A DNA stretch of 64,000 bases from Beroe forskalii (Eukaryota > Ctenophora > Nuda > Beroida > Beroidae): positions 124,001 through 188,000 of the forward strand of contig WFMF01000147.1 in assembly GCA_011033025.1 (NCBI GenBank). Direction: 5' to 3'. Position 1 is the first letter of the stretch; every line of letters starts with the position of its first letter. Made by a program: the position numbers and the translations under genes. Of this stretch, positions 18,426-47,346 are shown piece by piece. The notes below the pieces were generated by a model. It made no database searches. It worked only from the letters and a program-made list of their open reading frames with translations, and was not told where the DNA came from.

Positions 18426-18577
18426 GCTAATTAAACCTTGTACCTATATATATTATTTACATTAATTTCTGACAATTAAAGCATCGAAACCATACCTCAT
18501 ACTAGACTTCTAGACAGCGTTCATGTTATATTCAGATAACAATTATTTGGAGGGAAACGGAGTAAGCATAGAAATTT

Positions 18578-18844
18578 CAGAACAAATAACCACGACATGT
18601 TAGTTGCAGCGAATTTTCACCATAGCATATGACATCATCATGCTGAAATTGTATTGTCATTTATATCATTGCACACACGCAAAACATAATATAAATACCT
18701 ATTGATAACCAACAGGTAAGAACTGCTCAATATTAGAAACGTGGCAAAACATGTTGATTTAAAATTCTCAAATCACAAACTGAATAAAATATATGAAATT
18801 CACAAACTGAAATAAATATGAAATAACGCAATCATCGCATATTA
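18578..18844 (-). repeat. PLE-1 terminal repeat, 3' copy
   Basis: This is the reverse complement of 45880-46136, with small indels. It lies downstream of the GIY-YIG ORF in coding orientation. Its hammerhead-like core (18607-18645) reads on the PLE sense strand. The inner edge is at TAATATGCGATG. Confidence 0.85.
18607..18645 (-). ncRNA. Mutated hammerhead-ribozyme-like core in 3' pLTR
   Basis: This has the same 39-nt layout as the copy at 46069-46107, but the core reads AUGAUGA instead of CUGAUGA, so the essential C3 is lost. Stem II (GUCAUA with UAUGGU) still pairs through G-U, and GAAA and the UUC/GCUG end are kept. Probably inactive. Confidence 0.6.
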
Positions 18845-18944
18845 CCTATTATACAAACTGAAAAGATAAATCCAATAAAACTGATAAATTATGATACAGC
18901 AACACCCTAAAAGATGCGCAATGGGATGGAATATTCCTGTGTAT

Positions 18945-19380
18945 TTACTTATTTAGCGTTTGTTTCTTGCCTAGTTTGAGCATAACACTTTCCATATAGC
19001 GGAGCCGAAGATCGTTTGAGCAGTTTCCAAGGATTTGAATGTCCTTGAAAACAAACTCGCACTCGGGGTCACCCGTTTCGGATATGTGCCCAATGGAGAG
19101 CGCTATTCTCTGTCCTAGGATTAAGATGCCCATTTGAACTGTAAAATCTCTCATAAACCGTGTTTTTGGTTTTACCCAAATAAGCCGCACTCGGCCCACA
19201 CTTTTTACATTTAATGTAATAAATTACCCCCGATTTACATTCCAATGGCAAAATGTCCTTAAATCGAAACATATCCTTGATAGAAAATCCTCTCTTAACC
19301 CATTTGTGCCCAGTGGCCACATATGTAGCCATCTCAATTGCGAGCCCATAAAAGGGCACCAAGACAACTTTTTTCAACAA
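18945..19380 (-). pseudogene. PLE-1 GIY-YIG endonuclease domain, frameshifted
   Basis: This is the nicking domain of a PLE, which cuts target DNA for primed reverse transcription. Reading minus, the pre-domain block FRFKDILP is followed by GVIYYIKCKKCG (the GIY strand with its Cys pair), AYLGKT (the YIG strand), ERF (the catalytic Arg helix) and SALHWAH. A frameshift near 19080 then moves to the second frame, with RYMES giving the metal-binding Glu. So all key residues are present across the break. The upstream part (codons from GCCACATATGTAGCC) looks like foldback-element DNA, so the true PLE edge is about 19320. The terminal repeat follows at 18844. Confidence 0.8.
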
Positions 19381-20060
19381 AAGCGTTTGAATCAGATAGG
19401 GGGATGATTATTCAAGGCATTCTGATTAATATTTCAAGCGCTTTGGATGCTTGAATGATAGAAAATTTATTTTGAAAATGACAAAAAACGGCATTTTTCC
19501 ACAAGAAATTTCAAGGTCTCATTCAGAAGAACCTGATCAATAATAGCAGCTGAAACTTTCGGAATTTAGAGAAGAATCATCGCATTTTTCGATGAAATGA
19601 TCATTATGACGAAATACAGTTACATACTTTAGCCATCATTGTTTCTTTTCCATGTGACGTCACGTTTGTGGCCACTGGGGGCGGCCACGAACGTGGTTTT
19701 TAGAAATGCTACAAATGTGGCCAATTCATTGTCCACATATGTAACCTGCCACAAGTGGAGCCACTATATTGGCTACGTTTGTGGACATGTCACATATGTG
19801 GCCATTATATTGGTAAAATTGTGAATTTATTGGCTACATTTGTGACTCGTTCACATATATGTTGCCATTGTTGGAACATATTTTGCCATTATAATGGCCA
19901 CGTTCGTGGCCATGCCACACACCATGTAAAAATGTTGAAGGGAGATCGAACATTGTTTCATATCTTACTCTGATCACTTTCAATTTCTAGAAGAATGTCA
20001 TGACAGTTGTAAGCCATAGCTCTTGTAAAGTTGTAATGTCTCGTGAGTCGGTCCAAAACA

Positions 20061-21099
20061 GGCATCTAAAATTAATGCTGAGGAAATACTGAACTTAGGT
20101 GCAAATTTTTTATTGTTTTGCTGGTGGATTTGGATGAATATTAGGATTAGCGTCGATTACCTATACTATGCAAATCAATACCTGATTCGTCGGGAATTCT
20201 TGACTATGTCACTCGCATCAAGTAAAATAAAAACCGATCGCCATAATATTATGAGTATAATATGCCCATATTACTGTATGTGATTTCGTCATATTTTTGC
20301 TACGTTTCTGACCAAAAACTAATGTATGATCATATTATTGGCTTTTATTTCTTATTATATGTTGCCTGGCAACACAAAAAATAATTACTAACCAAGCTAT
20401 GATCAAAGCTTCAAAAATGGTTTATTGAACGTGTGGAAAAGCGCTGCTCAACACTGGTATTTCTAACCTCAGCAAAGTTCACTCCTTGTATCTTGTTATG
20501 TTTTGGTCAAGTAATTTATAACTTACTTACAGTAAGTGCTTAGGTGATGTAACTTGTTAGCAATATTTGAGTCTTCCATCACCAATCACCATTCACCAAA
20601 AAAGCAAAAAAAAGAAAGAATTATTTATTGCTGTCGTGATCGACCACACTGAGCAGCAAGCCGGCCTGGGTGTCGAATTGTTTTTGTAAGCCGAATTTCA
20701 CCATGACGTGTATTTTTAATTGCTGTTTCTACCCATTCAATGATTTGTTCTTCACCGTATGACGTTCAACGACTGCTCATGAAGAAAATGTGCAAATGAG
20801 CAAAATCTGGGGAGAATAATTTTCCAATGGAAACCCCCTGTACTGTGGCCTGTGGTGTGTCCAAACTTATCTGGGCGAGTTGGGCGATCTGATTCAAACA
20901 TAACAGCAGTCTGTTGCAATAAAAAGGGAAAAGCTCCTTGAAGATCGTTCATAATCATAAGATCTCGATCATAGGTACACGATTTCAGTTCATCACCTAG
21001 TTCAAGGTACTTGTTAATGATGAGTAGGTATGATTATATGTTGAAATCTAAATAAAATGCTATTAAATAATGTTGCTGATACAATCCTATAGAGGGGCT
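20061..21099. other. Central region of GCCAC foldback, unassigned
   Basis: This is the spacer between the arms. A 68-codon minus frame (20752-20958) has no family that I recognise. No RNA gene or other repeat was noticed. Confidence 0.4.
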
Positions 21100-22199
21100 G
21101 CAGCTTGCGACAAGGACTTTCCCGACTCACGGGGCATCACAAGAATGATAGTCAATGACTGTGATGTTGTTCGAATAGAAATTGCAATTGATCAGAGTAA
21201 GATATGACACAATGTTTGATCTCCCTTCAAAATTTTTACATGGTGTGTGACATGGCCACGAACGTGGCCATTATAATGGCAAAATATGTTCCAACAACGG
21301 CAACATATGTGGACGAGTCACAAATGTAGCCAATAAATTCACAATTTTACCAATATAATGAGCCCCCTGCCAGATTAGAACAACGCCACACAAGGTATTG
21401 AATTCGCCACACTATATAAATAATCGCATTGTTAAGATTATATTCGCCACAGGCCACACCCTATGCGTTAACTTTCTAAGAATGCGTGTAAAGTGATGGG
21501 TAATATTCGCCACACTAGCATTATATTCGCCAAAGTGGTCGCAAGTTTATGAATACACGCAATGCTAAGGAAATATTCGCCTGTTTTATAAACAATATTC
21601 GTAGACTATTTTTCGCTGTGCTATGAAAATATTCGCCTACTAGGTAACACATTTATTATTACAGAATGTTTCGCCGTGTTAGGAAAATATTCGCCTATTG
21701 GGTAACACATTCATTCTTAGAGAATATTTCGCCGTGTTTGGAAAATATTCGCCAGTTGGGTATCAAATTTCTTCTTGGAAAACATTTCGCCGTCTTAATA
21801 AAATATTCGCCGTATGTTATGATAACATGTACACTCTAAGTTACACACATTAACCCCACCCTGACCTTGATTCACATCTGTACAAAATGTTTTCTAACTT
21901 GACTCCTGAAATTTTTCTATTTCATATTATGATCAGAATATGATGTATTGTTGTACACAAAGTTGCACTTAGCAATACAGACCAACTGTGTATGATGTAA
22001 ATTCAAGCATTTATACTTTTCGGATTAAACACATCATAATTTCATATTGGTTCGTTGTAGCCTAACGGAGAGCCTAACGGAGAGCACGTTTTCATATTAT
22101 CATGGGGGCATAACATAGCGAGGTTAAGAACATAGGAACCAGATTGACTACGAGGGGGGAGCGACTAAGAAGCAGTATTGGGATTGGGAGAGCTCAGCT

Positions 22200-23590
22200 T
22201 AGTTTGGCGTGAAAGAGCCCAACTTAGTATTGGGGATCCTAACTTAGTGTGGGGGAGCCCGATTTTTATAGCCAATGGTGAATGGGGGAGCCCGAATTCG
22301 TATGACCAATGGGGGAGCCCGACTTAGTATCATATGGATCCCGACCTACCATCATGGGCAGCCCGAGTCAGTATGTGGAGCCAGACTTGCCGACAGAATT
22401 AAAGTGACATATGTGGAGCCCGCCTCATCTATTATGGGGAGCCCAACCCAGTATCAGAGGGAACCGCAACTTACTTATACTTATTCAGTCTCCCATACTA
22501 ATTCAGGCTCCTCATACTATTACTAAGTTGGGCTCCCTCATACTATGTCGGGCTCCCCCTACTATGTCGGGCTCCCCCGTACTAAGTTGGGCTCCCTCGT
22601 ACTAAGTCAGGCTGCCCGTATTAATTCAGGCTCCCTATACTAAGTTGGGCTCCCTCGTACTAAGTCGGGCTCCCCCTACTATGTCGGGCTCCCTCGTACT
22701 AAGTTGGGCTCCCCCATTCCAAGTCGGCCCCCCGTATTAATTCAGGCTCCCTATAATAAGTTGGGCTCCCTTGTACTAAGTCGGGCTCCCCTACTATGTC
22801 GGGCTCCCCCGTACTAAGTTGGGCTCCCCCATACTAAGTCGCCCCCCCCCCTATTAATTCAGGCTCCCTATAATAAGTTGGGCTCCCTCGTACTAAGTTG
22901 GGCTCCCCCTACTATGTTGGGCTCCCCCGTACTAAGTTGGGCTCCCCCATACTAAGTCAGGCTGCCCGTATTAATTCAGGCTCCCTATACTAAGTTGGGT
23001 TCCCACGTACTAAGTCGGGCTGCCCATACTAATTCAGGCTCCCTATAATAAGTCTGGCTCCCCCTACTATGTCGGGCTACCCCGTACTAAGTTGGGCTCC
23101 CCCATACTAAGTTGAACTGCCCGTACTAATTCAGGCTCCCTATACTAAGTTGGGATCCCTCATACTAAGTCTGGCTCCCCTACTATGTTGGGCTCCCCCG
23201 TACTAAGTCGGGCTCCCCCATGCTAAGTCGGGCTTCCCGTATTAATTCAGGCTCCCTATACTTAAGTACTAAGTTGGGCTCCCTCGAACTAAGTCGGGCT
23301 CCCCCTATTATGTCGGGCTACCCCGTACTAAGTTGGGATCCCCATACAGAGTCGGGCTCCCCATACTATGTCGGGCTCCCACATACTAAGTCAGGCTACC
23401 CATTCTAAGTTGGGCTACCCATACTAAGTTGGGCTACCCCATACTACAACTCGAGCTCCTTCGTACTGTACTAAGTAAGGCTTCCACATACTAAGTTGGT
23501 TCCCCTATGTTGAATACTAAGCCGGGTTCCCCCATTCTCATTCGCTATCCCCGATACTAAGTCGGGCTTCCTAACGCCACGTCAGGCTCC
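22200..23590. repeat. Left GGGCTCCC-ACTAAGT array
   Basis: Tandem units of about 20 bp (TACTAAGTTGGGCTCCCCC) number several dozen. The first 250 bp is in the opposite orientation (AGCCCGACTTAGTAT), so the array changes strand near 22480. It is the mirror of 24840-26180. Confidence 0.85.
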
Positions 23591-23598
23591 CCGTACTA

Positions 23599-24075
23599 CC
23601 TTATCGGACATAATGATCATGGACTTTAGTTTCACGGACCTAAAACTTCACAGACATTAATATTCACGCCCGATCCAGCCACTTCAAATTTCAAGAAAAC
23701 TTCGAAATTATCGGCTCGATTTTTCCCATTTTCTTCCACGATTTGAATACTTGAACAAAAGATTTTTTCAATGTTTATCGTTAATTGATATGATAAATTT
23801 CCATATAATTGCAGGTACTAAGCATAAAAAAGAAGCTTCATTTCCTTAAAAATTTTATTATTGGTGCATTTAAAGAGTTAAAGAGATGGAGTCAAAATTT
23901 GGCGTCTCTACTCTAGAAAATTAGAAATTTTAGGAGGAAATACCGGACTTAATTTTCGCGGACCTGAAAATCACGGACATAGTGTCACGGACAAAATTTT
24001 CACGGACATTAATATATATATACGCTGAGGTGCTCAGCGTGAATGTAATGTCCGCGATAATTATGTCTGATAAGG
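23599..24075. mobile_element. CCTTA-ended MITE with CACGGAC word
   Basis: The ends are CCTTATCGGACATAAT and, inverted, ATTATGTCTGATAAGG. TA precedes the left end; TT follows the right. The word TTCACGGAC with CCTAAAA or ATTAA recurs near both ends in inverted orientation. It sits between the two arrays of the 6.25-kb foldback and shares the CCTTA terminus of the elements at 1943, 60231 and 62116. Confidence 0.7.
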
Positions 24076-24839
24076 TTTATTGGGCTCCCCCAAGAATTAT
24101 GATACTAAGCCAGGGTCTCTAAGTCGGGCTCCCAACTTAATGGTTACTAAGTCGGGCTCCCCAATAAAGAGTCGGGCTACCAAATGCAAAGTCGGGTTCC
24201 CCCATGGCCCAAACTATAGTACTATGTCAGGCTTCTCATACTACGTCATTGTAAGATTAACAAACGAATGGGAGTGTTATATCGAAAATTATCACACGAG
24301 GCGTCAGCCGAGTTTGACAATTTTCGATATCACACGATCCATGAGTTTGTTAATTGTATTATTACCCGACAAAACTGTGCTCCCTACCACTCGGGTCTGA
24401 CGACCCTCGTCTGAATTCAACGTTTTTATAGATTTTCGAGTGCTCCTTCATAAAATCAACAATTTATTTAACGATATTCTGCTCTATTATTCCGCCAGTG
24501 TAAAGTAGATGTATAAAGGAGTGATATATCGATAATTATCACACTGGAGTTTGAGCCACGGGAGGGTAATAATAAGTTTTATTAAGCTTATATAACTACC
24601 AAGTTATGAGGGTTTTCTCCAAAATTTGTAGGAGAAGATAGATTCTAAAGATGATTTACGGCAAATTGCATTAGAAGTTCGCACGTACTGTAATTGCAAA
24701 CGAACTTGCGATTTGAAAAATTTATAACTTTGGCTAGGAAAAATATTTTTTCATGGGGTAAAAACCTACTGGTAGTATAGGTGGCGTTCCCCTCTATCAG
24801 AAACAACAAGAACCGGAAATCGGCCTCAGACCCCCCGGC
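24076..24839. repeat. Central spacer of the 6.25-kb foldback
   Basis: After a short tail of GGGCTCCC units, the word ATATCGAAAATTATCACAC and its variant ATATCGATAATTATCACAC occur near 24275 and 24525, with an inverted form near 24320. This suggests a small eroded hairpin element. The rest (24560-24839) is unassigned. Confidence 0.45.
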
Positions 24840-26180
24840 CTCGACTTAGTACGGAGAGCCCGACTTAGTATGGGGGAGCCCGAATTTGTATGGGAGAGCC
24901 CGAATTAATGACTTAGTATGGGAACCCTGACTTAGTTTGGGCCATGGGGGAACTCGACTTAGTATTTGGGAGCCCAACTCTGTATGGGGGAGACCGACTT
25001 AGTAACCAGTAAGTTGGGAGCCCGACTTAGTGCGGGAGAGCCTGGCTTAGTATCATAATTCGTGGGGGAGCCCAATATAGAACGGGGAGCCCGACGTGGC
25101 GTTAGGAAGCCCGACTTAGTATCGGGGATACCGAATAAAATGGGGAGCCCGGCTTAGTATTCAACATAGGGGAACCAACTTAGTATGTGGAAGCCTAACT
25201 TAGTACTGTACGAAGGAGCCCGAGTTGTAGTATGGGGTAGCCCAACTTAGTATGGGTAGCCTAACTTAGAATGGGTGGCCCAACTTAGAATGGGTAGCCC
25301 AACTTTGTGTGGGCAGTCTGACTTAGTATGGGCAACCTGGCTTAGTATGTGAGAGCCCGACTTAGTGTGGGGGAGCCCAACTCTTTATGGGGATCCCAAC
25401 GTAGTATGGGGACTTTTTATAAGTATGGGGTACCTGACTTAGTATAGGGACAGTGGAGCACGACATATGAGAGAGCTCGACTTAGAGACTTAGTACGGGG
25501 GAGCCCAACTTAGTACGGGGGAGCCCGGCATAGTAGGGGGAGACCGACATAGTAGGGGGAGCCCGACATAGTAGGGGAGCCCGACTTAGTACGAGGGAGC
25601 CCAACTTAGTATAGGGAGCCTGAATTAATACGGGCAGCCCGACTTAGTACGAGGGAGCCCTACTTAGTATACTGGGAGCCCTAATTTGTATGAGAGGGCC
25701 GAGAGCCCACCTTAGTATGGGGGAGCCCGACCTAATGTCTTAACTTATGGGGAGCCTGGCTTAATAATATGGGCCATGGGGACACCGGACTTAGTATGTG
25801 GGAGCCAAACATAGTACCGGGTGCCCGACTTAGTATGAGGGAGCCCAACTTAGTAATAGACTAGTATGAGGAGCCTGAATTAGTATGGGAGACTGAATTA
25901 GTAAATAATTAAGTTGCGGTTCCCCATGATACTGGGTTGGGCTCCCCATAATAGATGAGGCGGGCTCCACATATGTCACTTTGGTTCTGTCGGCAAGTCT
26001 GGCTCCGCATACTGACTCGGGCTGCCCATGATGGTAGGTCGGGATCCATATGATTCTAAGTCGGGCTCTCCCATTGGCCATAAAAATTCTGGCTCCCCCA
26101 CACTAAGTTAGGATCCCCAATACTAAGATGGGCTCTTTCACGCCAAACTAAGCCGAGCTCTCCCAATCCCAATACTGCTT
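24840..26180. repeat. Right AGCCCGACTTAGTA array
   Basis: This is the inverted counterpart of the left array, with 18-20 bp units of GGGGGAGCCCGACTTAGTA. Orientation flips back at about 25900, as it does on the left side. Confidence 0.85.
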
Positions 26181-27245
26181 CTAAGTCGCTCTCCCCTCGT
26201 AGTCAATCTGGTTCCTATGTTCTAAACCTCGCTATGTTATGCCCCCATGATAATATGAAAACGGGCTCTCCGTTAGGCTATAACGAACCAATATGACATT
26301 ATGATGTGTTTAATCCGAAAAGTATAAATGCTTCAATTTACATCATACACAGTTGGTCTGTATTGCTAAGTGCAACTTTGTGAACAACAATACATCATCT
26401 GCTCATAATATGAAATAGAAAAATTTCAGGAGTCAAGTTAGAAAACATTTTGTACAGATGTGAATCAAGGTCAGTGTGGGGTTGATGTGTGTAATTTAGA
26501 GTGTACATGTTATCATAACATACGGCGAATATTTTATTAAGACGGCGAAATGTTTTCCAAGAAGAAATTCGATACCCAACTGGCGAATATTTTCCAAACA
26601 CGGCGAAATATTCTCTAAGAATGAATGTGTTACCCACATACTGACTCGAGCTGCCCATGATGGTAGGTCGGGATCCATATGATACTAAGTCGGGCTCCCC
26701 CATTGGCCATAAAAATTCTGGCTCCCCCACACTAAGTTAGGATCCCCAATACTAAGTTGGGCTCTTTCACGCCAAACTAAGCCGAGCTCTCCCAATCCCA
26801 ATACTGCTTCTAAGTCGCTCCCCCCTCGTAGTCAATCTGGTTCCTATGTTCTAAACCTCGCTATGTTATGCCCCCATGATAATATGAAAACGGGCTCTCC
26901 GTTAGGCTACAACGAACCAATATGACATTATGATGTGTTTAATCCGAAAAGTATAAATGCTTGAATTTACATTATACACAGTTGGTCGGTATTGCTAAGT
27001 GCAACTTTGTGTACAACAATACATGATCATCTGATCATAATATGAAATAGAAAAATTTCAGGAGTCAAGTTAGAAAACATTTTGTACAGATGTGAATCAA
27101 GGTCAGGGTGGGGTTAATGTGTGTAACTTAGAGTGTACATGTTATCATAACATACGGCGAATATTTTATTAAGACGGCGAAATGTTTTCCAAGAAGAAAT
27201 TTGATAGCCAACTGGCGAATATTTTCCAAACACGGCGAAATATTC
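26000..27245. repeat. Tandem duplication of about 635 bp in the right arm
   Basis: The block from CATACTGACTCGGGCTGCCC (about 26000) to TGTTACCCA (26636) is repeated from 26637 with few changes. The first copy breaks off inside the ATTCGCC zone; the second continues to the true end. This makes the right arm longer than the left. Confidence 0.8.
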
Positions 27246-27694
27246 TCTAAGAATGTATGTGTTACCCAATAGGCGAATATTTTCCTAACACGGCGAAACA
27301 TTCTGTAATAATAAATGTGTTACCTAGTAGGCGAATATTTTCATAGCACAGCGAAAAATAGTCTACGAATATTGTTTATACTTTTATAAAACAGGCGAAT
27401 ATTTCCTTAGCATTGCGTGTATTCATAAACTTGCGACCACTTTGGCGAATATAATGCTAGTGTGGCGAATATTACCCATCACTTTACACGCATTCTTAGA
27501 AAGTTAACGCATAGGGTGTGGCCTGTGGCGAATATAATCTTAACAATGCGATTATTTATATAGTGTGGCGAATTCAATACCTAGTGTGGCGTTGTTCTAA
27601 TCTGGCAGGGGGCTATAATGGCCACATATGTGACATGTCCACAAACGTAGCCAATATAGTGGCTCCACTTGTGGCAGGTTACATATGTGGACAA

Positions 27695-27915
27695 GACCTC
27701 TGAAGAACTCAAGGTTGTGTTTGGAGTTCCTCAGGGTAGTTGCCTTGGCCCACTCTTGTTCCTGGTCTATATAAATGATCTCCCTAACATAAATAATAAT
27801 ACTGAATTTGTTCTTTTTGCTGATGATACTAATATATTTATAAAGGCTCAAAATCAAAAACTTGTATATGAAAATGCTAACAAAATTCTTGAGCACTTGA
27901 GCCTCTCTGCCTCTA
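27695..27915 (+). pseudogene. LINE-A RT palm segment
   Basis: The peptide has GVPQGSCLGPLLFLVYINDL and VLFADDTNIF, the two signature blocks of non-LTR RT (palm and catalytic DD). It ends at KILEHLSL, where foreign DNA starts. The natural continuation, YMLVNKLHINMSKC, is found at 30237. So the 27916-30236 insertion splits one ORF. Confidence 0.85.
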
Positions 27916-30236
27916 TATTGTAAACATAAATGATTTTATGTTTTAGTTGTTGTCAAAAGTCAGTACACGCTTGTAAAGAAAGTAAAGTAGGGATATATTG
28001 AAAATACACACAATTATTAACATTCACTAACAAATCTGTTATCTCCCTTATTCCTGCCTCGTCATGCAGGTCCCCTTTGCAGTTGACTCCCCCATTGTGC
28101 TGTGTACGGGGTGCTCCTCTCATATTCTTTAACCTCTGTACTTCTGTAGTTCTCCCCTGACATGTTTCGTCTTGTAGTTGTCCCTTAGGTCCTTTAGTCC
28201 AGCTGAATCTTCTCCCCTTGTCACACTGCTAACTCGTTCCATCTTGTGGATCCTCCTAGTCTCTAGTCATGGCGTTATTCCCGACAAACATCAGCAACAC
28301 AATCTAAACCGAGAGGACAGCACAAACTTGCTGTGTGAACACAGTCAATATAACCAAAGCTCACGGCTATTGGAACGTGCTTCACTTTGATTGGTCCACA
28401 GGTCCAGTTACCTTGTTCCCGTTCTCTGATTGATCCCTACAACTGCACTAACAGCGTGTCTCCCTGTGATTGGTCCCCTTCTTTGAAACGCTAAACTATT
28501 GTTATAATATTCCATAACTTCTAACACTGGTCAAACAATTTAAACTTATAGTTGTACTCAATTGTTCCTGTGGAAGACCTGTCGCTTCCCTTCATGCACG
28601 TGTTACCTAAATTCCACAAACCACAGTTGGACTTTAGGTACATTGCAGCAGGGACCCGATGTTCTACCAAGAAATTATCGAAAATTTTGAGTGGTATATT
28701 AAAGTTGTGTGTCGTGTGATAAGACATTAAAGTATGACGATGAATTCAAGTTTAAATTTAAGAATACTACAGGTTACTGGGTCACTAAAAGTAAGGAATC
28801 TACTATTTATAATCTTAACTATCTGAATAATGCGAGTTCTGCTAAATCAGTGGACTCTTTTGATTTCAAGAAACTGTATACTAATATTCCCCATGATAAG
28901 GTTATTGATAAGATTTCGGATCTTATCAAACGTTGTTATATGATTAAGAAAGTTGACTATATCAAAATTGATGACAAAATTGATGATGTGCTTACTGGAC
29001 AGGAGTTAAGAAAACTCAGTGGACATACACCTGCCAGGAGGTACTGGAAATGTTTTCCTTTTTGATAAACAATATCTATGTGAAGTTTAGGGGTGTGATT
29101 TACAGGCAGATTGTTGGGATACCTATGGGTTGTGACTGTGCTCCGCAAGTAGCAGATCTGTTTCTTTACTGGTATGAGCACAGTTACATACTCAAGGCTA
29201 TTGCTGACAAGAACCCTGTTACCCACACTCTTAAATATGCCCGAAGGTATATTGATGACTTGAATGTCCCCAATGCTAGTAGGAAACTTTGTGACATCAT
29301 TACCAAAGAGATATATCCAGAGGAGCTAAGTATCGTAGCAACTAATGATAGCAAATTCAACACCTATTGCTTAGATTTGGATATTCGAGTAGAGAATAAC
29401 AGATTTTTATGCAAACTGTATGATAAGCGAAGAGATTTTCCTTTTAAAGTAGTTACTTTTCCCAATCTGAAATCTAATGTCCCCAATAGAAACTCTTATG
29501 GTACTTTTGTTGGTGAGCTCTACCGAATCTGTAAATCATCATCAGACCATCGCGATTTTATTGTGGACGTTAGGCTACTAGTTACTAAGTTATTAAACCA
29601 GAACTTTGAACAGAACAGACTGTACGGCACACTCAATAATTTCCTGAAAAGCCGTCCAGGATGCTTGTCAAAGTACTGGCATAACTTCAATGTATCAGAA
29701 TTCATGTAGGAAATATTGTACTTAATTAGTGTCTGGTATCTAGTTTCTTGGTATTTGGTGTACATGATACACTTTCTGTATACGTATTCGTTAGCATGTA
29801 GGTTGTCGAGAGCAAACATTGTTTGTTTAGTGATTGTGTGTTTGATATCTTCTCTGTCGTGTCACGTCTTATTGGATACAGAGTTTTAGTTATAATTTTT
29901 TCACATTAGTTTATTTAAGTGTAATTTTGGCAGCTTGTAATATTCTGTTATTAACGATTTGTATTATTCAGAGGACATGTAACAGAGTCAATATATCTAA
30001 TGTTGTACAGAGGGTGACAAACCCCTCGGATGTTCTCACCTAGCGTTTCACTTCTTTAATAGGTTCAAAGGTTCTAAAAGGTCTTGAATAGTCAACAGAG
30101 CATAGCAAAACTGGCGTACAAATAGTAATTATAAGCTTCACCATAATATTTTAATATTTACAGTAAACGCAAAACTCCAAAATAATATGCTTAATTTAAG
30201 AGTCCAATCATGGCATCTGCATCCCCAACAATATGA
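27916..30236 (+). mobile_element. PLE-2 insertion in LINE-A
   Basis: The insert carries a PLE RT (28566-29709). 27916-28565 and 29710-30236 have no other recognisable content. Only a short TATAT-like match is seen at the two junctions, so the duplication is uncertain. No GIY-YIG domain and no copy of the PLE-1 terminal repeat were found. Confidence 0.6.
28566..29709 (+). pseudogene. PLE-2 reverse transcriptase, two breaks
   Basis: The RT blocks appear in order across three frames. 28590-28710 gives LPKFHKP and FRYIAAGTRCSTKKLS. 28709-29065 gives FDFKKLYTNIPH. 29050-29709 gives VGIPMGCDCAPQVADLFLYW and ARRYIDDLNV (the catalytic DD is near residue 69 of the last frame). There is a stop at about 28710 and a frameshift near 29055. 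The CSTK-LS and YID-D context resembles PLE-3 more than PLE-1, whose blocks are SLFTNVPL and GVAMGSSLGP. So two distinct PLE lineages are in this window. Confidence 0.85.
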
Positions 30237-30562
30237 GTATATGCTAGTGAATAAACTTCACATCAACATGTCAAAATGCTGCTTCATCGACTTCAAACTT
30301 CCAAAATCAAAGAACATTATTGATGAAAACTATGTATTAGAAATAAATGGCACAAAAATCAAACAAGTTAGTGAAGCCAAATTTCTCGGAGTGACTATTG
30401 ATGAGAACCTCAATTGGAACTCTCACCTTAAAAAGCTAGGCAAGAAACTCTCCTGCAGTGCAGGAATCATTAATAACTTAATCAAAGACAACATTCCAAG
30501 TGAGTTATTTAAAAACATATATTACACACTATTTGAGAGTCATCTCTCATATGGTATCACAG
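30237..30562 (+). pseudogene. LINE-A RT thumb segment
   Basis: This continues LINE-A after the PLE-2 insert. NKLHINMSKC is the helix after the palm and KFLGVTIDENLNWNSH is the conserved thumb block. The frame is cut at SYGIT by the G run of the GGTACC element and resumes at 37330 as ITVWGGVSNN, the shared IT codons being the duplicated target. Confidence 0.85.
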
Positions 30563-30699
30563 GGGGGGGGCAACCTCGAAAAACCCCGGGTGGATATAAA
30601 AATTGGCAAATGGGGGTTTAATTTTTCGGGGTTTATGAGGGTTTAAGGAGGCTAAACTGATAAAAATAGGTAGCCGTTTTTCGGTCGGAAAATTCGATT

Positions 30700-31636
30700 T
30701 TTTCTCAAAATGGTACTACTTTAGTTGTGGATTTTCGGCTCTTCTCTCAAATGGTACCATATTTGTTGAGGATTTTTGGCACTTTTCTGAAATGGTACCT
30801 TTTTTGTTGAGGATATTCGACCCTTTTCTGAAATGGTACCATTTTTGTTGACGATTTTCGACTCTCATCTGAAATGGTACCATATTTGTTGACGATTTTC
30901 AACCCTTTTCTGAAATGGTACCAATTTTGCTGAAGATTTTTGGCACTTTTCTGAAATGGTACCTACCTACCATTTTTTGTTGACAATTTTCGACCCTTTT
31001 CTGAAATGGTACCATTTTTGTTGACGATTTTCGACCCTAATCTGAAATGGTACCATTTTTGTTGAGGATTTTCAACCCTTTTCTGAAATGGTACCATTTT
31101 TGCTGGAAATTTTTTCTGGGCACTTTTCTGAAATGGTACCATTTTTCTTGAGGATTTTCGACCCTTTTCTAAAATGGTACCATTTTTGTTGACGATTTTT
31201 GACCCTCATCTGAAATGGTACCATTTTTGTTTAGGATTGTCAACCCTTTTCTAAAATGGTACCATTTTTGCTGAGGAATTTTGGCCCTTTTCTGAAATGG
31301 TACCATTTTTGTTGAGGATTTTGGGCCCTAATCTGAAATGGTACCATTTTTGTTAATAGGATTTTCAACCCTTTTCTGAAATGGTACCATTTTTGCTGGA
31401 AATTTTTTCTGGGCACTTTTCTGAAATGGTACCATCTTTGTTTAGGATTTTCAACCCTTTTCTAAAATGGTATCATTTTTGTTGAGGAATTTTGGCCCTT
31501 TTCTGAAATGGTACCATTTTTGTTGAGGATTTTCGACCCTAATCTGAAATGGTACCATTTTTGTTTAGGATTTTCAACCCTTTTCTGAAATGGTACCATT
31601 TTTGCTGGAATTTTTTTCTGGGCACTTTTCTGAAAT
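30700..31636. repeat. 41-bp GGTACC minisatellite
   Basis: About twenty units each have one AAATGGTACCATTT palindrome followed by a T-rich stretch and a CCCTTTTCT tail. A variant unit with CTGGAAATTTTTTCTGGGC recurs about every four units, showing a higher-order period. The array resumes at 33623-33868. Confidence 0.85.
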
Positions 31637-36800: not shown

Positions 36801-37052
36801 AAGGAATTATGAAGCCGGTTTTTATGGTTTTGAAAATGACTCCAAATCAACATCAATTGCAGAAAAATTGGGGCCAGTGCAACAAGAGGAATTGTTCCAG
36901 GTTTTGCCTACACCATTGACAGAGAGTGTGAGGCAAAATTGAAACCATAAAAACTTGTTCCAAACATAGATAACTCATGTTTTGTAAAAAGTACCATGGA
37001 AGGTACATTTTCTTGAAAATGTACCCTAGAAGGGACATTTAGACAGTTATCA
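33873..37052. mobile_element. TTAA element with TGATAGCTGTCT ends
   Basis: The inverted ends are TGATAGCTGTCT and AGACAGTTATCA, with TTAA duplicated (33869-33872 and 37053-37056). A neighbouring GGTACC unit shows the empty site CTTTTCTTAAATGGTACC. The near-palindromic word AAATGTCCCTTCTAGGGTAC recurs about five times inside (near 33885, 34270, 34625, 34965, 37015). TTAA duplication is typical of piggyBac and Kolobok superfamilies. No ORF; non-autonomous. Confidence 0.8.
35116..36434. mobile_element. 1.3-kb near-perfect palindrome, TTAA-flanked
   Basis: The sequence from the G run and GGTTCAAGCC to the centre (about 35775) is repeated in inverse almost without change to 36434. TTAA lies outside both ends. 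Arms are about 650 bp with a few substitutions and small indels, and there is virtually no loop. The centre is GGCGCCA-rich, and the flanking CTAAATTCCTCAGAAACAA block is shared with the small hairpin at 2686-3085. Mirror frames on the two strands are products of the symmetry. Confidence 0.9.
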
Positions 37053-37329
37053 TTAAATGGTACCATTTTTTGTTGAGAAATTTTAAAATTTATTCAGAAA
37101 CAGTACCATTTTAAAGAAAATTTTCTGAATTTTTTTCAAATGGTACCACTTTTGATGATGATTTTCGACCCTTTTCTGAAATGGTACCATTTTAGTTGTG
37201 GATTTTTGGCCCTATTTTGAAATGGTACCCATTTAAACCCCCAAAAACCCCAAAGTGGATATAAAAAATGCCAAATAGGGGTTTAATTTTTCGGGGTTTA
37301 TGGGGGTTTTTCGAGGTTGCCCCCCCCCC

Positions 37330-37890
37330 TATCACAGTCTGGGGAGGAGTATCTAATAACAAAATTGAGCCTCTGTTCAAACTCCAGAAAAAATGCATAA
37401 GAATTTTGTTTGGAGACAAGGAAGCTTATATCAATAAATTCAAATCTTGTGCCAGGGTAAGGGAATTCGACAACCAAACGCTAGGCCAAGAATTCTACAG
37501 AAGAGAACACACTAAACCTCTCTTTAATAAGTTAATAATCATGGAATAATGAATATCCGAAACGTTTATGTTTATCACTGTGCTAACGAAATTTTTAAAA
37601 TACTCAAATTCAGGACCCCTATGTGCATGTTTGAGAAATTTGTACTCTCAGGTAGAAATGGAAGAGACACAAGACTACTGACTCCCACACCCTCCAAAAA
37701 TTTCTTTTATGTCGGTAGTATCATTTGGAATGTTGTCCGAGACCTCTTACAAATTTATGATTTCTCATTAAAAATAGGTCCCATCAAATCTAATATTAAT
37801 AAGGAAACAATTCTCCAAACCCAAATGCAAGGTGACCTCGATGAATGGGAACATGGAACCTGGAACGCCTTACAGTATCACCAGTACTAA
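37330..37890 (+). pseudogene. LINE-A ORF2 C-terminal part
   Basis: This resumes LINE-A after the GGTACC element: ITVWGGVSNNKIEPLFKLQK, CIRILFG, then after a frameshift near 37549 FFYVGSIIWN, the C-terminal signature before the stop at 37890. The frame match to 30562 across the 6.8-kb insert is exact through the duplicated TATCACAG. Confidence 0.85.
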
Positions 37891-38678
37891 GAATCCCTAC
37901 CTTGGCGATATTTCTAAACCTGGCAGCAGTCGCATGCCCACATATACCTAATTATATAATACAAATTCTTAAAATCATCTATCCCCTTTTGTTGCGTTGG
38001 AGGGTACTTTGGTATGAACTTTGCCTAATATTACCAGTGGCAATATACTTAAGCCAATTCATTCAATTTGAATCATGATATGTATGTACTGTAAATGAAA
38101 GTAAATAAAAGTATGTTGAAAAAGTTTGAAACTCATCCATCTTATGAAAACAGACTCAGCTCACACTATACAAACATTATAAACTATTTTTAAAATCATT
38201 ATATATACTAGAAATAAAGACTTTCCTAGCTTCAAGTGCTGGTACACTTAAAGGAAGCAATAAGCCTCCAGCCTTGTGACCTTGCGTTTCGCCAGCACTT
38301 GTAAGCCTACCCATACTGGGTAGTAGGTCATCTGTCGGCGTGAGCTGAGTCAATATGCCACTATTTTCTGTCATGTCCTGATCCACCCGTTGAAAGTTAG
38401 AATGTTCAAATGCTTTAATGTTAAATTATTCCCCTATTCCCTGGAATCAGAACCCCATCGTTTATGTTAGTACAGCTCTCCCTTATTTCCCTGAAATCAG
38501 AATCCCACCTTTATTTTTTTAGAATATTCTAATCCTATATCATAAATCCCATATCACCCTGAAATCAGAATCCTAATACAGTAATGGAAAATTTTTATTG
38601 ATTTATTTTGATATATTTATAGTGTTCAATGAAATGCGAAATAAATTTTAGTTTTCTTCTGAATTTTAGTTTTCTTCT
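37891..38678. other. LINE-A 3' region, non-coding
   Basis: This holds AT-rich sequence, an inverted pair AAGTGCTGG/CCAGCACTT (about 38235-38300), and three spaced CCCTGAAATCAGAATCCC units (38430-38580). No gene seen. Confidence 0.45.
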
Positions 38679-38824
38679 GAAATTGGCCACATTTGTAGCA
38701 TTTTCTAAAAACCACGTTCGTGGCCGCCCCTAGTGGCCACAAACGTGCCAGGCCATTATCTTAAAAACCGTCAATTTTAGAGTTATGAGACCTATCAGAA
38801 AAGATTCAGCGTAAAATTTTACCC

Positions 38825-39181
38825 CTATGACCAATTTTTCACAAAAATTGTAGGTGCCGATCTATGGGCGGGCATGAGTGGGTTAAAAACAACCTTATTA
38901 AGATCAGCACCCGGATAGAATTTTGCAATCAACTGTCTTAATCTCTTAGCTAGAAGGTAAGAGGGCTGGCCTAAAAACGGCAAAACAAACGTTATAGATT
39001 TCTTGCTAACAGTGTGAACTTGGTCATCAGGTACCTCATATAACTTAGCCAGAAATTCGTTAATTAGTTTAGTAGGAAAACCATTACCTATAAATTTCTT
39101 TCTAAGAATTGATAAATCTTGATGAAACCACGAATACGTTGTTGCTATGGAGTAAATTCTAAAAATAAGACACCTTATCAA
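38825..39181 (-). pseudogene. PLE-1 RT-to-nuclease connector
   Basis: The minus frame reads LIRCLIFRIYSIATTYSWFH, then FIGNGFPTKL, LPFLGQPSYLLAKRLRQLI and FYPGADLNKVVF. This is the block between the RT thumb and the GIY-YIG domain in PLE proteins. The next expected block (FRFKDILP) is found 19.5 kb away at about 19270. Residues after KVVFNP are probably not PLE. Confidence 0.8.
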
Positions 39182-39202
39182 ACTAAACTTTTCGTAGAAC
39201 TT

Positions 39203-42232: not shown

Positions 42233-43947
42233 GATGATGGATGAATATAAGTCATTGTTGGAGGGACTGCTTGATTCTGAATTGTTGAATTTTGAACTGT
42301 TGGGTTCTGGAATGTTGACAGTTGCTGAACTTGATGCATTCCATGATGTGCTTTGAACTGAGGTTGCAGCTGATACTGCATTAAATGCATGTAGTTGGAC
42401 TTGAGGAATGCTAAGTCCTGTTGTTGCTGTTTCATGTTGTTGTTCATGAGCAGAACAATGTTCTTCAGCTCTAAAAAATGGTCCGAGTTGGGGATGACTT
42501 CGTGTTCTTGGTCACCTGTGGCATTATCTACCCTAGTACTAGGGTTCCTGACTGATGGCCTGCGCTGTCTTTCCTGTTGGAAGGTGTTCCTGTTCTGTTC
42601 TGGGCCTTGAGCTGGAACTTGGGCCTGTTGTTCCTTCCTTTTAGTACCCTTTAAGTGCACATAGGTACATGATTGATTAGTACAGAGGCGCTTTTGGACT
42701 GAGTATCTGCAGATTATTGGGTGGAAAAATTCACAACTTTCTCCCAACTGGCAGCCATATCTCCCTTGTTTGCCATAACTGCAGAACTTGAAGCAACGTT
42801 TGGGGTGGCTTTTAGGACATGTTCTCCCCTCGATAGTTTTGTTGCCTCTCAGTCCATGCGGACATTTACCATGCTTGTACTTGTCACACACGGATCTACT
42901 GTTCTCACCATGAGTATTGGTGACAGAATTGCTTGTTTCACCATCCAAAATGAGATCCTCAGATGGACCTGGAGTTTCAGTCCGGATTGCCTGCTCAGAA
43001 TTCCGATCTGGAGATGGGGCTCGTGAGTTGCTGGCTGAGTTGGAAATACTATCATGGCGTGACTTGGATTTACGGGGAACCACGGGGTTGGATTTGGTGT
43101 GACAGTCTTGGCATAGCCACACATAGCCCGAAGGTAGCCCCAGATTTTGTTCTTTAAGCATATCAGCCTTTGCCTGGATTGACTGACAATCATGAGAACC
43201 CTGGAAACACATGAAGCAGTGGAACGCTGGCGATCGCTCTGGTTCCAGGGGGTACCTGTAGTGCTGTGCACATTCGAGACATGTTGCTGGAAGCAGGGAC
43301 TTGATGGCCAAGATGATTCGGGACTGGAGTGACTCCTTGGTGAAAATCTTATTGCCTTCGCTATCAGCTAAATCAATGTTCAAGAAGGTTGCACATGCCT
43401 CAAGAAAGTCCAGCTTAAATGATGCTAATGACTTCAACTGCATGGTTCTACTGGCTGTGATGTCAAATTTGGTTAAAACTCGTTTGACTAATTCATTGGA
43501 TTCAGCCTGTAGTAGCAGTTCACCAATAGCACACCTGGTACCGGATTCAATATTTTCGACTAATTTAGCCATTCTGTTGGTTGTTTACAGAACTTTCAGG
43601 AGAATTGAATTGAATTTTCACAGTAACACTGAACACTGATATAATTCTTCAATTTCAATGTGTTTGAATATTCTTCAATAACACTGAACAATGAACATAT
43701 AGCACTCAGAACATTGAACACGCAGTATAAATTCTTCAAACTGCAATGAAGGTAACACTGAATATTCTGAATATCACACCCAGAAGATGCTCAATCAACA
43801 GATATTACCGTACTTTGAGCTGTTTGAAGAGTCTTTATCTCCTGAGGGCCTTTGCGTAGCTCAGCTAGAGGGTTGGATTCGGGGCTACTTTCTTCTACAT
43901 TCCGAATCCTCAAATTTGATTGTATAAAGTAGTGTTGTAAAGTTTAA
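39206..43947 (-). mobile_element. LINE-C: two-ORF non-LTR retrotransposon
   Basis: This is an insertion in PLE-1 with AACTTCTA at both edges (39198-39205 and 43948-43955), a candidate 8-bp duplication. It contains a 5' UTR (43573-43947), ORF1 and ORF2, both open. There is no 3' UTR or A/simple-repeat tail: the ORF2 stop codon coincides with the right duplication. The CCCH-type ORF1 and EEP-RT ORF2 place it in the CR1/Jockey assemblage; clade not resolved. Confidence 0.8.
42226..43572 (-). CDS. LINE-C ORF1: zinc-finger nucleic-acid-binding protein
   Basis: The 448-residue protein probably coats element RNA in the RNP. Residues 98-157 hold a Cys/His-rich module (CLEC, CFMC, CQDC) like a RING/PHD-type zinc site. 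A Ser-rich linker (about 166-228) follows. Residues 229-306 form three CCCH-type fingers (CDKYKHGKCPHG, CFKFCSYGKQGRYGC, then CRYSVQKRLC with CTYVH), a type that usually binds RNA. 360-400 is a Gln-rich, probably coiled-coil stretch. Its stop overlaps the ORF2 ATG by 7 bp (ATGTTAA). This is not the esterase or RRM type of ORF1. Confidence 0.9.
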   Translation of the reverse strand: MAKLVENIESGTRCAIGELLLQAESNELVKRVLTKFDITASRTMQLKSLASFKLDFLEACATFLNIDLADSEGNKIFTKESLQSRIILAIKSLLPATCLECAQHYRYPLEPERSPAFHCFMCFQGSHDCQSIQAKADMLKEQNLGLPSGYVWLCQDCHTKSNPVVPRKSKSRHDSISNSASNSRAPSPDRNSEQAIRTETPGPSEDLILDGETSNSVTNTHGENSRSVCDKYKHGKCPHGLRGNKTIEGRTCPKSHPKRCFKFCSYGKQGRYGCQLGESCEFFHPIICRYSVQKRLCTNQSCTYVHLKGTKRKEQQAQVPAQGPEQNRNTFQQERQRRPSVRNPSTRVDNATGDQEHEVIPNSDHFLELKNIVLLMNNNMKQQQQDLAFLKSNYMHLMQYQLQPQFKAHHGMHQVQQLSTFQNPTVQNSTIQNQAVPPTMTYIHPSSC

Positions 43948-44785
43948 AACTTCTATAAAATTCAGGATACATATCAGAGTGTACAAAATGTTCCTCTTCT
44001 AGGTAGCACATCCAGATGTCTGCTAGAATGGGACCTAAGCTGCTGCCCATAGCAACCCCATCATGCTGTTCGTAGACAGTACCATCAAAACCAAACGTAC
44101 TGTTTATCACACAAAAACCAATTAGTTTGCGAAGTACTTGTTCTGGGAGTGGTGGAGGAGTGAGGTGGGAGCGGTACAGTCTGTCCATGCAAATATCCAC
44201 AGTCCGAGTCAGGGGAACATTGGTGAACAGGGACTGCACGTCATAGCTGACCATGAACTTGTCAGATAAATCCCACTGAGAGACTTGCGTAACGAAGTCG
44301 AAAGTGTTCCGCAAGTCAGTGCCATGACTGTTGACTGAGGCAGGTTTTATGATGCGTGAAACAAACTTCCCAAGGTCATAGGTCGACGTACCGATAGCCG
44401 AACATATCGGGCGCATTGGACATCCTGTTTTATGGACCTTGGGCAAACCATACATGACACCAATGTGACTTCCATTAGGATACAATCTCTTGTACTCGGA
44501 TTCAGAAATGTACCCTGGCTTACAGTACACATGATCCCTCAAATAATTACGAACACGTTTTTCAATAGTCCTTGATATGCGGTAAATATCCTGATTTTTA
44601 GCCAATCGGAATTTTGATTCATCCAACAAAATATCACGCATTTTATTAACATAGTCAATTCTGTCCAAAATAACCACTCCTGACCCTTTGTCAGGCTGGG
44701 CAACAATAATATCCTTATTTTTAGAGAGTTTAATTAGTGCCTCGTATTCCTCCTTAGGGATATTCATCATTTTGGAGCGAGACAT
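43910..44785 (-). pseudogene. PLE-1 reverse transcriptase core, truncated
   Basis: The minus frame carries the PLE blocks VAQPDKGSGVVILDRIDYV (29-47), YGLPKVHKTGCPMRPI (112-127), SYDVQSLFTNVPL (180-192) and GVAMGSSLGPILAD (243-256). It reaches YPEFYRS (273-279), where the next residues should lead into the catalytic YVDD. LINE-C starts there. Beyond LINE-C the frame resumes only at the connector, so roughly 130 residues including both catalytic Asp are missing. The loss is not explained by LINE-C alone, because the two frames do not join. The last 12 codons are LINE-C 5' DNA. Confidence 0.9.
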
Positions 44786-44838
44786 ATTGAACCGATTGAA
44801 CTGATATAATGATGAATATTGAATATAATGCTAGTTCG

Positions 44839-45452
44839 GGGGGGGGGCCAACCCCCATAAACCCCCGGTGGATATCGAAAAATGGCAAATGGGGGTTTAA
44901 TTTTTGGGGGTTTATGGGGGTTTATGGGGGCTTAATTTAGTTAAATTTTGCTGTTTTATGACTGATTTTGTTCACGATTTTTGGCATTTTAAGGAATGGT
45001 ACCATTTTTTGTTGACGATTTTTGGCCTTTTTTGAAATGGTACCATTTTTTGTTGATGAATTTCGGCCCTTTTCTGAAATGGTACCATTTTTTCAGCGAT
45101 TTTCAAGCCTTTTTTGAAATGGTACCATTTTCTGTTGCGCATTTTCGAACTTTTCCTAAAATGGTACCATTTTCGGCCATTTTTGAAATGGTACCATTTT
45201 TGTTGACAATCTTAGACCCTTTTTGAAATGGTACCATTTTTTGTTGGCGATTTTCAAGCCCTTTCTGAAATGGTACCATTTTTTGTTGACGATTTTAGGC
45301 CCTATTTTGAAATGGTACCAATTTTCATTGAAGATTTTCGACCTTTTTCTGGAAAATTAAACCCCCATAAACCCCCAAGTGGATATCGAAAAAGGCAAAT
45401 GGGGGTTAAATTTTTGGGGGTTTATGGGGGTTTATGGGGGTTGGCTCCCCCC
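44839..45452. mobile_element. Small GGTACC element in PLE-1, TAGTTCG duplication
   Basis: This 614-bp copy has clean inverted ends (G run, CCAACCCCCATAAACCCCC, GTGGATATCGAAAAA) and about eight GGTACC units. TAGTTCG lies on both sides (44832-44838 and 45453-45459). Removing it joins the PLE-1 N-terminal segment to the RT region. It is the simplest full member and best defines the family. Confidence 0.9.
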
Positions 45453-45483
45453 TAGTTCGCCAATTTTCTGTTTTAAATAGTAC

Positions 45484-45750
45484 TTATCCTCTAACCTCTT
45501 CAGGACCTTGAAACGATAACTTATCCAAGTCACTAAATAGGACCTCAAAGCGAGAGAAATAATCACCCTTCTCTAACTTGCGAGGAGGCAGGGCAAATTT
45601 GAGACCCTTTGAAAGCGCTGATTTCTCGATATCAGACAAAACATACGAGGACTTGTTAACAATTACTGATTCAGGATCTAGTAGTCCTTGTGTGGAACGA
45701 GAGTGTGCCCTTAAATTGGTGATCTTTTTATCGTGTTTACTACAAGACAA
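45484..45750 (-). pseudogene. PLE-1 N-terminal segment
   Basis: The minus frame includes SDIEKSALSKGLKFALPPRK, the N-terminal PLE block (LS-x-E-x-LL-x-KGLKF) that precedes the RT. Beyond VRG the frame stops, then continues in another frame as LKQKIGELA up to the inserted small GGTACC element. This shows decay before or after that insertion. Confidence 0.75.
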
Positions 45751-45879
45751 AGAGTGTTCATGTTGTAGTGTCTTATCAACTATAGCTTCGTAACAAACAT
45801 AGTCAAAGTGTCGAACCAGCGACTTGAACTTCGATTTAGCACTTAAAACCTGATCAGATAGATACTGAATTTTACGTAA

Positions 45880-46136
45880 TAATATGCGATGATTGCGTTA
45901 TTTCATATTTATTTCAGTTTGTGAATTTCATATTTATTCAGTTTGTGAATTTGAGAATTTTAAATTGACATGTTTTGCCACGTTTCTAATATTGAGCAGT
46001 TCTTACCTATTGGTATCAATATTTATATGTTTTGCGTGTGTGCAATGATATAAATGACAATACAATTTCAGCCTGATGATGTCATATGCTATGATGAAAA
46101 TTCGCTGCAACTAACATGTCGTGGTTACTTGTTTTG
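45880..46136 (+). repeat. PLE-1 terminal repeat, 5' copy (inverted)
   Basis: This repeat lies upstream of the PLE-1 ORF and is inverted relative to the 3' copy. It begins TAATATGCGATGATTGCG at the inner edge and ends GTGGTTACTTGTTTTG against the AGATAACAATTA duplication. Inverted as well as tandem terminal repeats are known for Penelope. It contains an intact hammerhead-like core at 46069-46107. Confidence 0.85.
46069..46107 (+). ncRNA. Small hammerhead ribozyme candidate
   Basis: The order is that of a type I hammerhead: CAGC (stem I), CUGAUGA core, stem II GUCAUA-UGC-UAUGAU, GAAA, then AU, UC (cleavage after C46103) and GCUG closing stem I. Helix III is reduced to the single A-U pair of the core with a 2-nt loop. 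Small hammerheads with nearly no helix III are known next to PLEs and were reported to cleave as dimers. One unpaired U precedes stem II. It is on the strand opposite to the PLE ORF in this repeat. Confidence 0.65.
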
Positions 46137-47346
46137 AGATAACAATTAGATGCGCAACTAAGTTCAATTGAAATTTACTGATTAGAATTAGAAATATTCA
46201 TGACTATGTCCAATTGTCATGCAATCACGAATAATCGGTCTTGTAACTTGTTTCGGAAATTCTTTTTACTAATCTGATCCATCGTTATGTGTTATATGAT
46301 CACTGACAGGTCTCAACTAACAGCCGGTGTCTCATTAATTAGTTATTAACTGGTCATGCAATCGGGGGGGCTCAAGCACTTAATGGTTGGAACACATGCC
46401 CACTAAGTGGGATTTCTGAGATTTTTCAAGGGACCTACCCACCCTATCCCACTTAGTGTCCTGCAGTAAGTGATTTTGCCACCGAAAAATATGGTACCCA
46501 CCCCAGACATTCACATTCTATTTTTACTAAGCTTTCTTGAGTTTTGGATATAACCATCAAACAGCATCAAATTAAATTGTGGTTCTATTTGTTAACTTCA
46601 TACTGTCTTTTGTAAGTTGCACCCAACAATAATCATTGATAGATATAATGCCATTGGTTTGCTATGCACCGTTCGTACTAATAATTTGAAGATCATCTGA
46701 CATGTACAGGGTCAACCAAAATCTGAAAATGGCATGACAATGTGAAATACTGTTTATATGATATAAAAGCTACATCCAGTTACATACTGGGAAATATTCA
46801 ATTGAATAATTATGCTATACTGTACAGTGTACAGTTAAAACTTCAAATTGCAATTACAGTGGAAACTCATAGGAATAATAAAAAAAGCTTTCAAGGAATT
46901 GCCTATTGAGATCTTGATGCACGACGTACATTGCACGTCCCTGTGTAGTGAGCAGGTAGATTGTATTTCCACTCTGATAATCTGACATACTGACATAGAG
47001 AGAAAATATTCGGCTACAACATACTATACCAAAAGAGTGTGAATTGTGAATTCAGTGCCAGTGGTGCCTTCATAGTTCATTCACCTAGATTATCAAATCT
47101 GTTCGTTTTCAGTCACTGGGGTTGGTCCAGAGTTCCAGACCCAGATATAAACAAACTGTTTATAAACAACTGATAAACAAACTGTATTCTAAGATTCTAT
47201 ATTACCGTATAATGCCATCGCTATCCCATCGCTATGCCATCGTTTAGTTAGATCGGTAATCTCATAAATGATCTGGTAACTTGAAATGATGTAGATTTTA
47301 CTAAAAACTGGTCATTATATACACCCCCCATTTCTAGGGGGACGGC

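Follow-up and report, generated by a model that had tools for sequence, protein, structure and literature searches.

Copies of Penelope-like elements (PLEs) are described, in the parts of the literature drawn on here, as bounded by inverted pseudo-long terminal repeats (pLTRs), with an optional tail of ~30–40 bp at one end, target duplications of 8, 9 and 10 bp, and a reverse transcriptase (RT) followed by a GIY-YIG domain (PMC3846280, PMC11167929). The portions of two further reports used here describe Terminons, large PLE-related units that carry secondary insertions (PMC6431247), and the nested transposable-element clusters of maize, wheat and barley, in which insertion within insertion gives a relative order of events (PMC11020628). 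Here, we compare these systems with a locus of the ctenophore Beroe forskalii, a 27.6-kb insertion that we attribute to a PLE and call PLE-1, which lies in a stretch of 64,000 nucleotides (assembly GCA_011033025.1, contig WFMF01000147.1, positions 124,001–188,000, forward strand) referred to below, in its own numbering, as the window.

Like the inverted-pLTR PLEs, of which Pen2a_Av of Adineta vaga is an example, PLE-1 has inverted pLTRs of ~0.2–0.3 kb, a tail of ~30 bp at one end and a putative RT ahead of a GIY-YIG-like end, and its target duplication is 12 bp long, compared with the 8–10 bp given for those elements in the sources used. It differs from them in that it appears 5'-truncated, has no YxDD motif and carries three direct insertions. 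As in the cereal nests, insertion within insertion provides a relative order, but the inserts are long interspersed nuclear elements (LINEs), PLEs and putative DNA-type elements instead of LTR elements, and arms of inverted-repeat elements supply empty sites from within the nest itself. The locus is also like a Terminon in being a large PLE-related unit with secondary insertions, whereas the bulk of it consists of inserts with junctions of their own. Our literature search found nothing on permuted PLEs or on nested insertions in invertebrates, and we do not claim that the nest or its dimer is unreported. Taken as a whole, the locus is very probably a single PLE insertion that was interrupted repeatedly by nested inserts, and we set out the evidence for this reading below.

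Outer boundaries and coding sequence of PLE-1

The insertion comprises 27,591 bp, 18546–46136, with its coding sequence on the minus strand and its 5' end at right, and lies between two exact copies of the 12-bp target duplication AGATAACAATTA at 18534–18545 and 46137–46148. These are the only two copies in the window on either strand, against 0.01 expected per window from shuffles, and when the left end was held fixed and the right end was shifted by as much as 2000 bases in each direction, 0 of 4000 shifted ends matched. Just inside the duplications are inverted terminal repeats that align with gaps over 272 columns (252 identities, 8 substitutions and 12 gap columns, the alignment reaching 4 bases into the right target duplication) and without gaps at 96% over 115 bp. 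The left (3') pLTR, 18578–18844 on the minus strand, is the inverted match of 45880–46140, with 8 substitutions in 260 positions, and the right (5') pLTR occupies 45880–46136 on the plus strand. Between the left target duplication and the left repeat is a minus-strand tail of 28–32 bp (18546–18577, inner boundary ±4 bases), and the right end has no such extension. This layout of inverted pLTRs, tail, target duplication and RT followed by GIY-YIG fits described PLE copies, and we therefore assign the element to the PLEs. PLE-1's own share of the 27,591 bp is ~2.7 kb (2,701 bases with the end of an inserted LINE, LINE-C, set near 43900), a length that suits a 5'-truncated PLE, and we read its open reading frame (ORF) as such.

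The ORF is in four minus-strand pieces, 45897–45484, 44830–43910, 39202–38887 and 19293–19072. As features these are an N-terminal part at 45484–45897, with a stop in frame near the junction with an inserted element, GG1; the RT core up to GVAMGSSLGPILADIW at 43910–44838; the C-terminal part of the RT at 38883–39202; and a GIY-YIG-like end (GVIY...YLGKT) running to a stop at 19072–19298, in frame with 38883–39202 once the two are joined at a TTAA. An earlier sequence-only reading of this DNA had claimed the exact 12-bp duplication, the inverted terminal repeats at both ends and PLE ORF parts in the right order, and all three claims are borne out by these results. The GVIY and YLGKT motifs start 16 residues apart and at the right place for the endonuclease end; the remaining motifs were judged by eye against the consensus. 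In a single comparison by BLASTP, the PLE-1 RT matched that of a second PLE-like fragment inside the nest at 2e-06 (55 residues, 25% identity).

Taking out 19299–38882 together with one TTAA gives a single open frame of 181 residues that connects the RT tail with the GIY-YIG motifs, and this rejoining of both halves in one frame is the strongest evidence that they belong to one element. The sequence-only reading had itself named an origin of the two halves from different PLE families as a finding that would overturn it. Such an origin, with the GIY-YIG end of one PLE insertion joined by rearrangement to the RT part of another, might be suggested by the second, distinct PLE-type RT inside the nest (28552–29709) and by the loss of RT motif C from PLE-1. 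We consider it extremely unlikely: the join at the TTAA passes in frame through the RT/endonuclease boundary, and the outer duplication and matching terminal repeats stand at both far ends.

Six levels of insertion on two branches

Inside PLE-1, insertions are stacked six levels deep, counting PLE-1 as the first. The deepest path runs from PLE-1 to a TTAA-flanked foldback with GCCAC arms (E2), LINE-A, a GGTACC element (GG2), a TTAA element (TT4) and a TTAA palindrome (PAL), and a second path of equal depth runs from PLE-1 through E2, LINE-A and GG2 to LINE-B and a tandem dimer. Both paths had been put forward in the sequence-only reading, and their levels are supported by target duplications, restored frames and array continuity, with removal of the dimer restoring the LINE-B frame. 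That reading had placed the GCCAC foldback at the level found here; as a correction, the foldback is flanked by TTAA. Its figure of at least nine insertions was conservative: 12 elements are counted with PLE-1, 11 of them further insertions. The locus itself displays the target duplications, the joins at empty sites and the order imposed by nesting. Target duplications flank 8 of the 12 elements (PLE-1, 12 bp; E2, 4; a second foldback, FB3, 6; GG1, 8; TT4, 4; PAL, 4; the dimer, 6; GG2, 8), so the earlier statement that junctions can be read through target duplications or empty sites stands for these, while the junctions of the LINEs and of the PLE-2-like fragment rest on the continuity of the interrupted element. 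For duplications of at least 6 bp, shifted-end controls matched 0 to 2 times in 4000. The 4-bp TTAA matched shifted ends far more often (E2, 26; TT4, 29; PAL, 30; each of 4000), and the placement of E2 and TT4 thus rests on restoration of a frame or an array and that of PAL on its palindrome ends.

E2 (19299–38882, level 2) has TTAA on both sides, and it is its removal that restores the PLE frame. With its two inserts removed, its arms differ by 11 substitutions in 337 compared positions, with 14 gap columns; its outermost ends show only a loose match. One of these two inserts is FB3, a 6.25-kb foldback with 19–20-bp repeats at 21361–27614 (level 3, in the right arm of E2), which is flanked by the 6-bp target duplication ATAATG (2 of 4000 shifted ends matched). 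The opposite arm of E2 provides the predicted FB3 empty site, with an exact match along all 61 bases compared. We also observed a 630-bp tandem duplication (26005–27268, 18 substitutions in 629) in the right arm of FB3. Further along the right arm of E2, at the same level, is LINE-A (27695–38680, plus strand), in pieces at 27695–27908, 30232–30562 and 37330–38680 that align collinearly with LINE-C ORF2. The opposite E2 arm is continuous across LINE-A except for two bases, 19727–19728, that are not represented at the site.

LINE-A is itself interrupted twice, at level 4. The first interruption, at ~27909–30231 on the plus strand with boundaries set by eye, is a PLE-2-like RT fragment in which a YIDD motif is present; downstream of its RT (28552–29709, +), no GIY-YIG-like end was noticed by eye. 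The second is GG2 (30563–37329), which has the 8-bp target duplication TATCACAG (0 of 4000 shifted ends matched) and whose removal restores the LINE-A frame. GG2 carries an array of 41-bp repeats with GGTACC, and this array hosts both LINE-B and TT4 at level 5. LINE-B is a 5'-truncated LINE with a TTTA-rich 3' end at ~31638–33622 on the plus strand (boundaries by eye), and the dimer lies within it at 32178–32923 (plus strand, level 6) with ATACTG on both sides as its target duplication, 3 of the 6 bases of which could be unit sequence (1 of 4000 shifted ends matched). TT4 (33873–37052) is flanked by TTAA and has the short inverted ends TGATARCTGTCT, and its removal restores the 41-bp array unit. 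It contains PAL, a TTAA-flanked near-palindrome at 35116–36434 (level 6), whose arms differ by 15 substitutions in 638 positions with 50 gap columns. Elsewhere in the window, 2807–2972, which lies within an inverted repeat at 2686–3085, is 77% alike to the PAL centre (35684–35846).

This region is highly repetitive, a circumstance in which an assembler could misjoin repeats and make unrelated fragments look nested. We regard such an artifact as very unlikely here: the target duplications are in register, the window contains 0 N bases, frames are restored at three junctions, and arm or array continuity is found at three more (FB3, TT4 and LINE-A), none of which is expected from misjoins.

Direct inserts outside E2

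The nested reading extends to two elements that interrupt PLE-1 directly, outside E2. GG1 is a GGTACC element at 44839–45451 with the 8-bp target duplication CTAGTTCG (1 of 4000 shifted ends matched), G-rich inverted ends and an internal array of ~41-bp units. GG1 and GG2 share the 8-bp target duplication length of hAT-like elements and, from their end sequences, we take the GGTACC elements to be comparable to hAT-like non-autonomous elements; no transposase was seen in them. E2, TT4 and PAL have the TTAA target duplication of piggyBac- or Kolobok-type elements. These DNA-type assignments, made from duplication length plus end sequences, are putative. Two further GGTACC elements stand head to tail at 12405–14647; they are 96% alike over 1.1 kb and abut, with nothing seen between them. 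Next to them is a 916-bp direct repeat, 10121–11036 and 11487–12402, whose copies are 99.8% identical and 450 bp apart; the second copy continues into the GGTACC pair, and a 76% relative is found at 1037–1942.

The other direct insert, LINE-C, runs on the minus strand from 39203 to ~43950, its right boundary being approximate. It has an upstream ORF (43584–42226) and an ORF2 (42511–39203) with endonuclease and RT, matching the Pfam families Exo_endo_phos_2 (1.3e-10) and RVT_1 (7.5e-30). No 3' untranslated region was seen, and PLE sequence follows directly after the ORF2 stop. A decayed relative of LINE-C at 55497–56432 (+), with 36–51% identity in three matches and an interruption at ~55674–56064, has ~55 bases after the matching-frame stop, ending in ATGT repeats (by eye). 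The missing 3' untranslated region, set against this relative, and the missing YxDD region of PLE-1 suggest that a deletion spanning the 3' end of LINE-C removed that end together with the YxDD part of PLE-1. The PLE-1 segment lost would amount to roughly 90 codons, if the corresponding spacing of the PLE-2-like fragment, gauged by eye, is taken as a guide.

Evidence that weighs against a single interrupted PLE

Several results weigh against the reading of the locus as one interrupted PLE. The [YF]xDD motif is absent from the three minus-strand frames of PLE-1's 2,701 bases. Pfam RVT_1 matched the RT core at an E-value of 0.04 and 14.0 bits, against a cut-off of 29.6; the RT tail returned nothing from Pfam; and the endonuclease piece gave no GIY-YIG family, only a sub-threshold match to PF22415, which is another family. 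A PDB sequence search with the PLE-1 RT found no match at E-values up to 1. The PLE-1 RT likewise had no relatives in viral_contigs and genome_contigs, nor the PLE-2-like RT in viral_contigs, collections that are viral or prokaryotic and whose silence carries little weight. Near GG1 the PLE-1 frame is broken by a stop or frameshift, with no single frame open across the join, and there is a stop within the GIY-YIG end, beyond which the sequence likely continues in another frame. Four of the 12 insertions are without a target duplication: none was seen for LINE-A, LINE-C or the PLE-2-like fragment, and none was clear for LINE-B. Finally, divergence between paired arms or units provides no usable clock. 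Substitutions, with gaps ignored, number 8/260 for PLE-1, 11/337 for E2, 9/714 for FB3 (counted in each arm over its outer 714 compared positions only), 15/638 for PAL and 4/353 for the dimer, and in pairwise Fisher tests on these five pairs only 1 of 10 fell below 0.05 (E2 vs FB3, p 0.049, uncorrected), so that arm divergence neither contradicts nor confirms the nesting order. The arms of inverted-repeat elements need not be identical at insertion. Of the relative clock proposed in the sequence-only reading, the order by nesting is therefore retained, and its confirmation by arm divergence is not available.

PLE ancestry is judged here from features other than YxDD. A single-sequence structure model of the GIY-YIG piece (74 residues) had a mean predicted local distance difference test score of 39 and is unusable. 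With no YxDD remaining, this copy cannot be active, which bears on a further explanation, that the locus is a giant composite PLE, akin to a Terminon, that moves as one 27.6-kb unit with its passengers. Giant PLE-derived Terminons with secondary insertions are described, in the parts of that report used here at chromosome ends (PMC6431247), and the ends and outer duplication of PLE-1 are clean. We nevertheless find it very improbable, given the missing YxDD and an ORF that E2 interrupts and that returns to frame once E2 is removed.

Under the reading that we favor, of one PLE insertion interrupted repeatedly, PLE-1 would have inserted once, leaving the 12-bp target duplication, with its inverted pLTRs and with its tail at the 3' end. 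Already dead, or dying later, it would then have accumulated other elements, both in itself and in one another, through at least 11 later insertions, six levels deep on two branches. We infer separate arrivals, with each insert using machinery of its own: presumably cut-and-paste for the elements with TTAA, 6-bp or 8-bp duplications, and for the LINEs and PLE-1 reverse transcription at the target. The nest is probably neutral and would not move as one unit.

A hammerhead candidate in the PLE-1 repeats

In PAc of Anolis, a hammerhead overlaps the ORF start, according to the portion of the report used here (PMC11167929). PLE-1 is similar to the extent that a hammerhead-like core whose stem I is 4 bp or longer lies at 46073 (+) in its right terminal repeat, near the start of the ORF. 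ATG codons stand ~25–28 bases before the expected cut and open a frame that soon meets a stop (by eye). The core differs from known PLE hammerheads in that its stem II is irregular and Rfam does not recognize it: among 11 matches over 18001–47000 at E-values up to 1, all below gathering scores, and 4 matches over 45960–46150 at E-values up to 5, none was a hammerhead. The left repeat copy has A in place of hammerhead C3, and three folds of the candidate showed no special stability (z −0.04, −0.02 and −0.58). A second match to the core lies in LINE-C ORF2 at 41824 (−), making two in the window against 0.08 expected from 50 shuffles within 1-kb blocks, in a motif scan set up when the candidate was already known. 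A hammerhead in the PLE-1 terminal repeats is therefore a possibility suggested by motif resemblance.

The tandem dimer

The oddest piece of the nest is the dimer, which consists of a 357-bp and a 353-bp unit, differing by 4 substitutions and 4 gap positions, and ~36–39 bp of a third. Animal retrozymes are described, in the part of the source used here, as tandem units of 150–450 bp with type I hammerheads (PMC7229834). The dimer is like these metazoan non-LTR retrozymes in having ~353-bp tandem units, within the range given for them, a flanking duplication and a structured RNA, which for the dimer is predicted. The 353-nt unit has a predicted folding energy of −126.4 kcal/mol, a stability that none of 100 shuffles equalled (z −4.34; z −3.73 for the opposite strand), and in the predicted fold one closed hairpin domain lies on either side of the boundary between repeats. 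When 78 consecutive windows of 353 nt across PLE-1 are ranked by fold stability, the palindrome, FB3 and an E2 arm hold the first three places, and the dimer windows come fourth and sixth; with more stable windows in those three elements, stability alone does not make the dimer special within the nest.

It differs from the retrozymes in their defining feature, the type I hammerhead: no CTGANGA core is present in the dimer unit on either strand and Rfam gave no match at E-values up to 3, and we reject its classification as a retrozyme. A looser version would treat the dimer as a mobile RNA element resembling retrozymes: a circular or rolling-circle RNA would have been copied head to tail into DNA as a dimer, and its processing would depend on a self-cleaving motif that is neither a hammerhead nor in Rfam. 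This strikes us as quite unlikely. For a reading as a tRNA-derived short interspersed nuclear element, ARAGORN with the bacterial code found no tRNA in the window. A single exact dimer pattern, sought in each of viral_contigs and genome_contigs, had no match; these collections are viral and prokaryotic, such that its absence there says little.

Outside the nest, 52630–55027 is a 2.4-kb array of a 19-bp unit, TTGACATCACTCTTTATCC, with strong GC skew.

Significance

The nest is a well-preserved, clean case of ordinary nested insertion by elements of known kinds, and it leaves known biology unchanged. It makes a PLE insertion visible over its full length, including the inverted pLTRs, the tail and the target duplication. 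Two branches of six successive insertions each are put in order within 27.6 kb by means of empty sites that come from the nest itself. Where a genome holds further copies of these families, such an order would allow their periods of activity to be ranked without a molecular clock.

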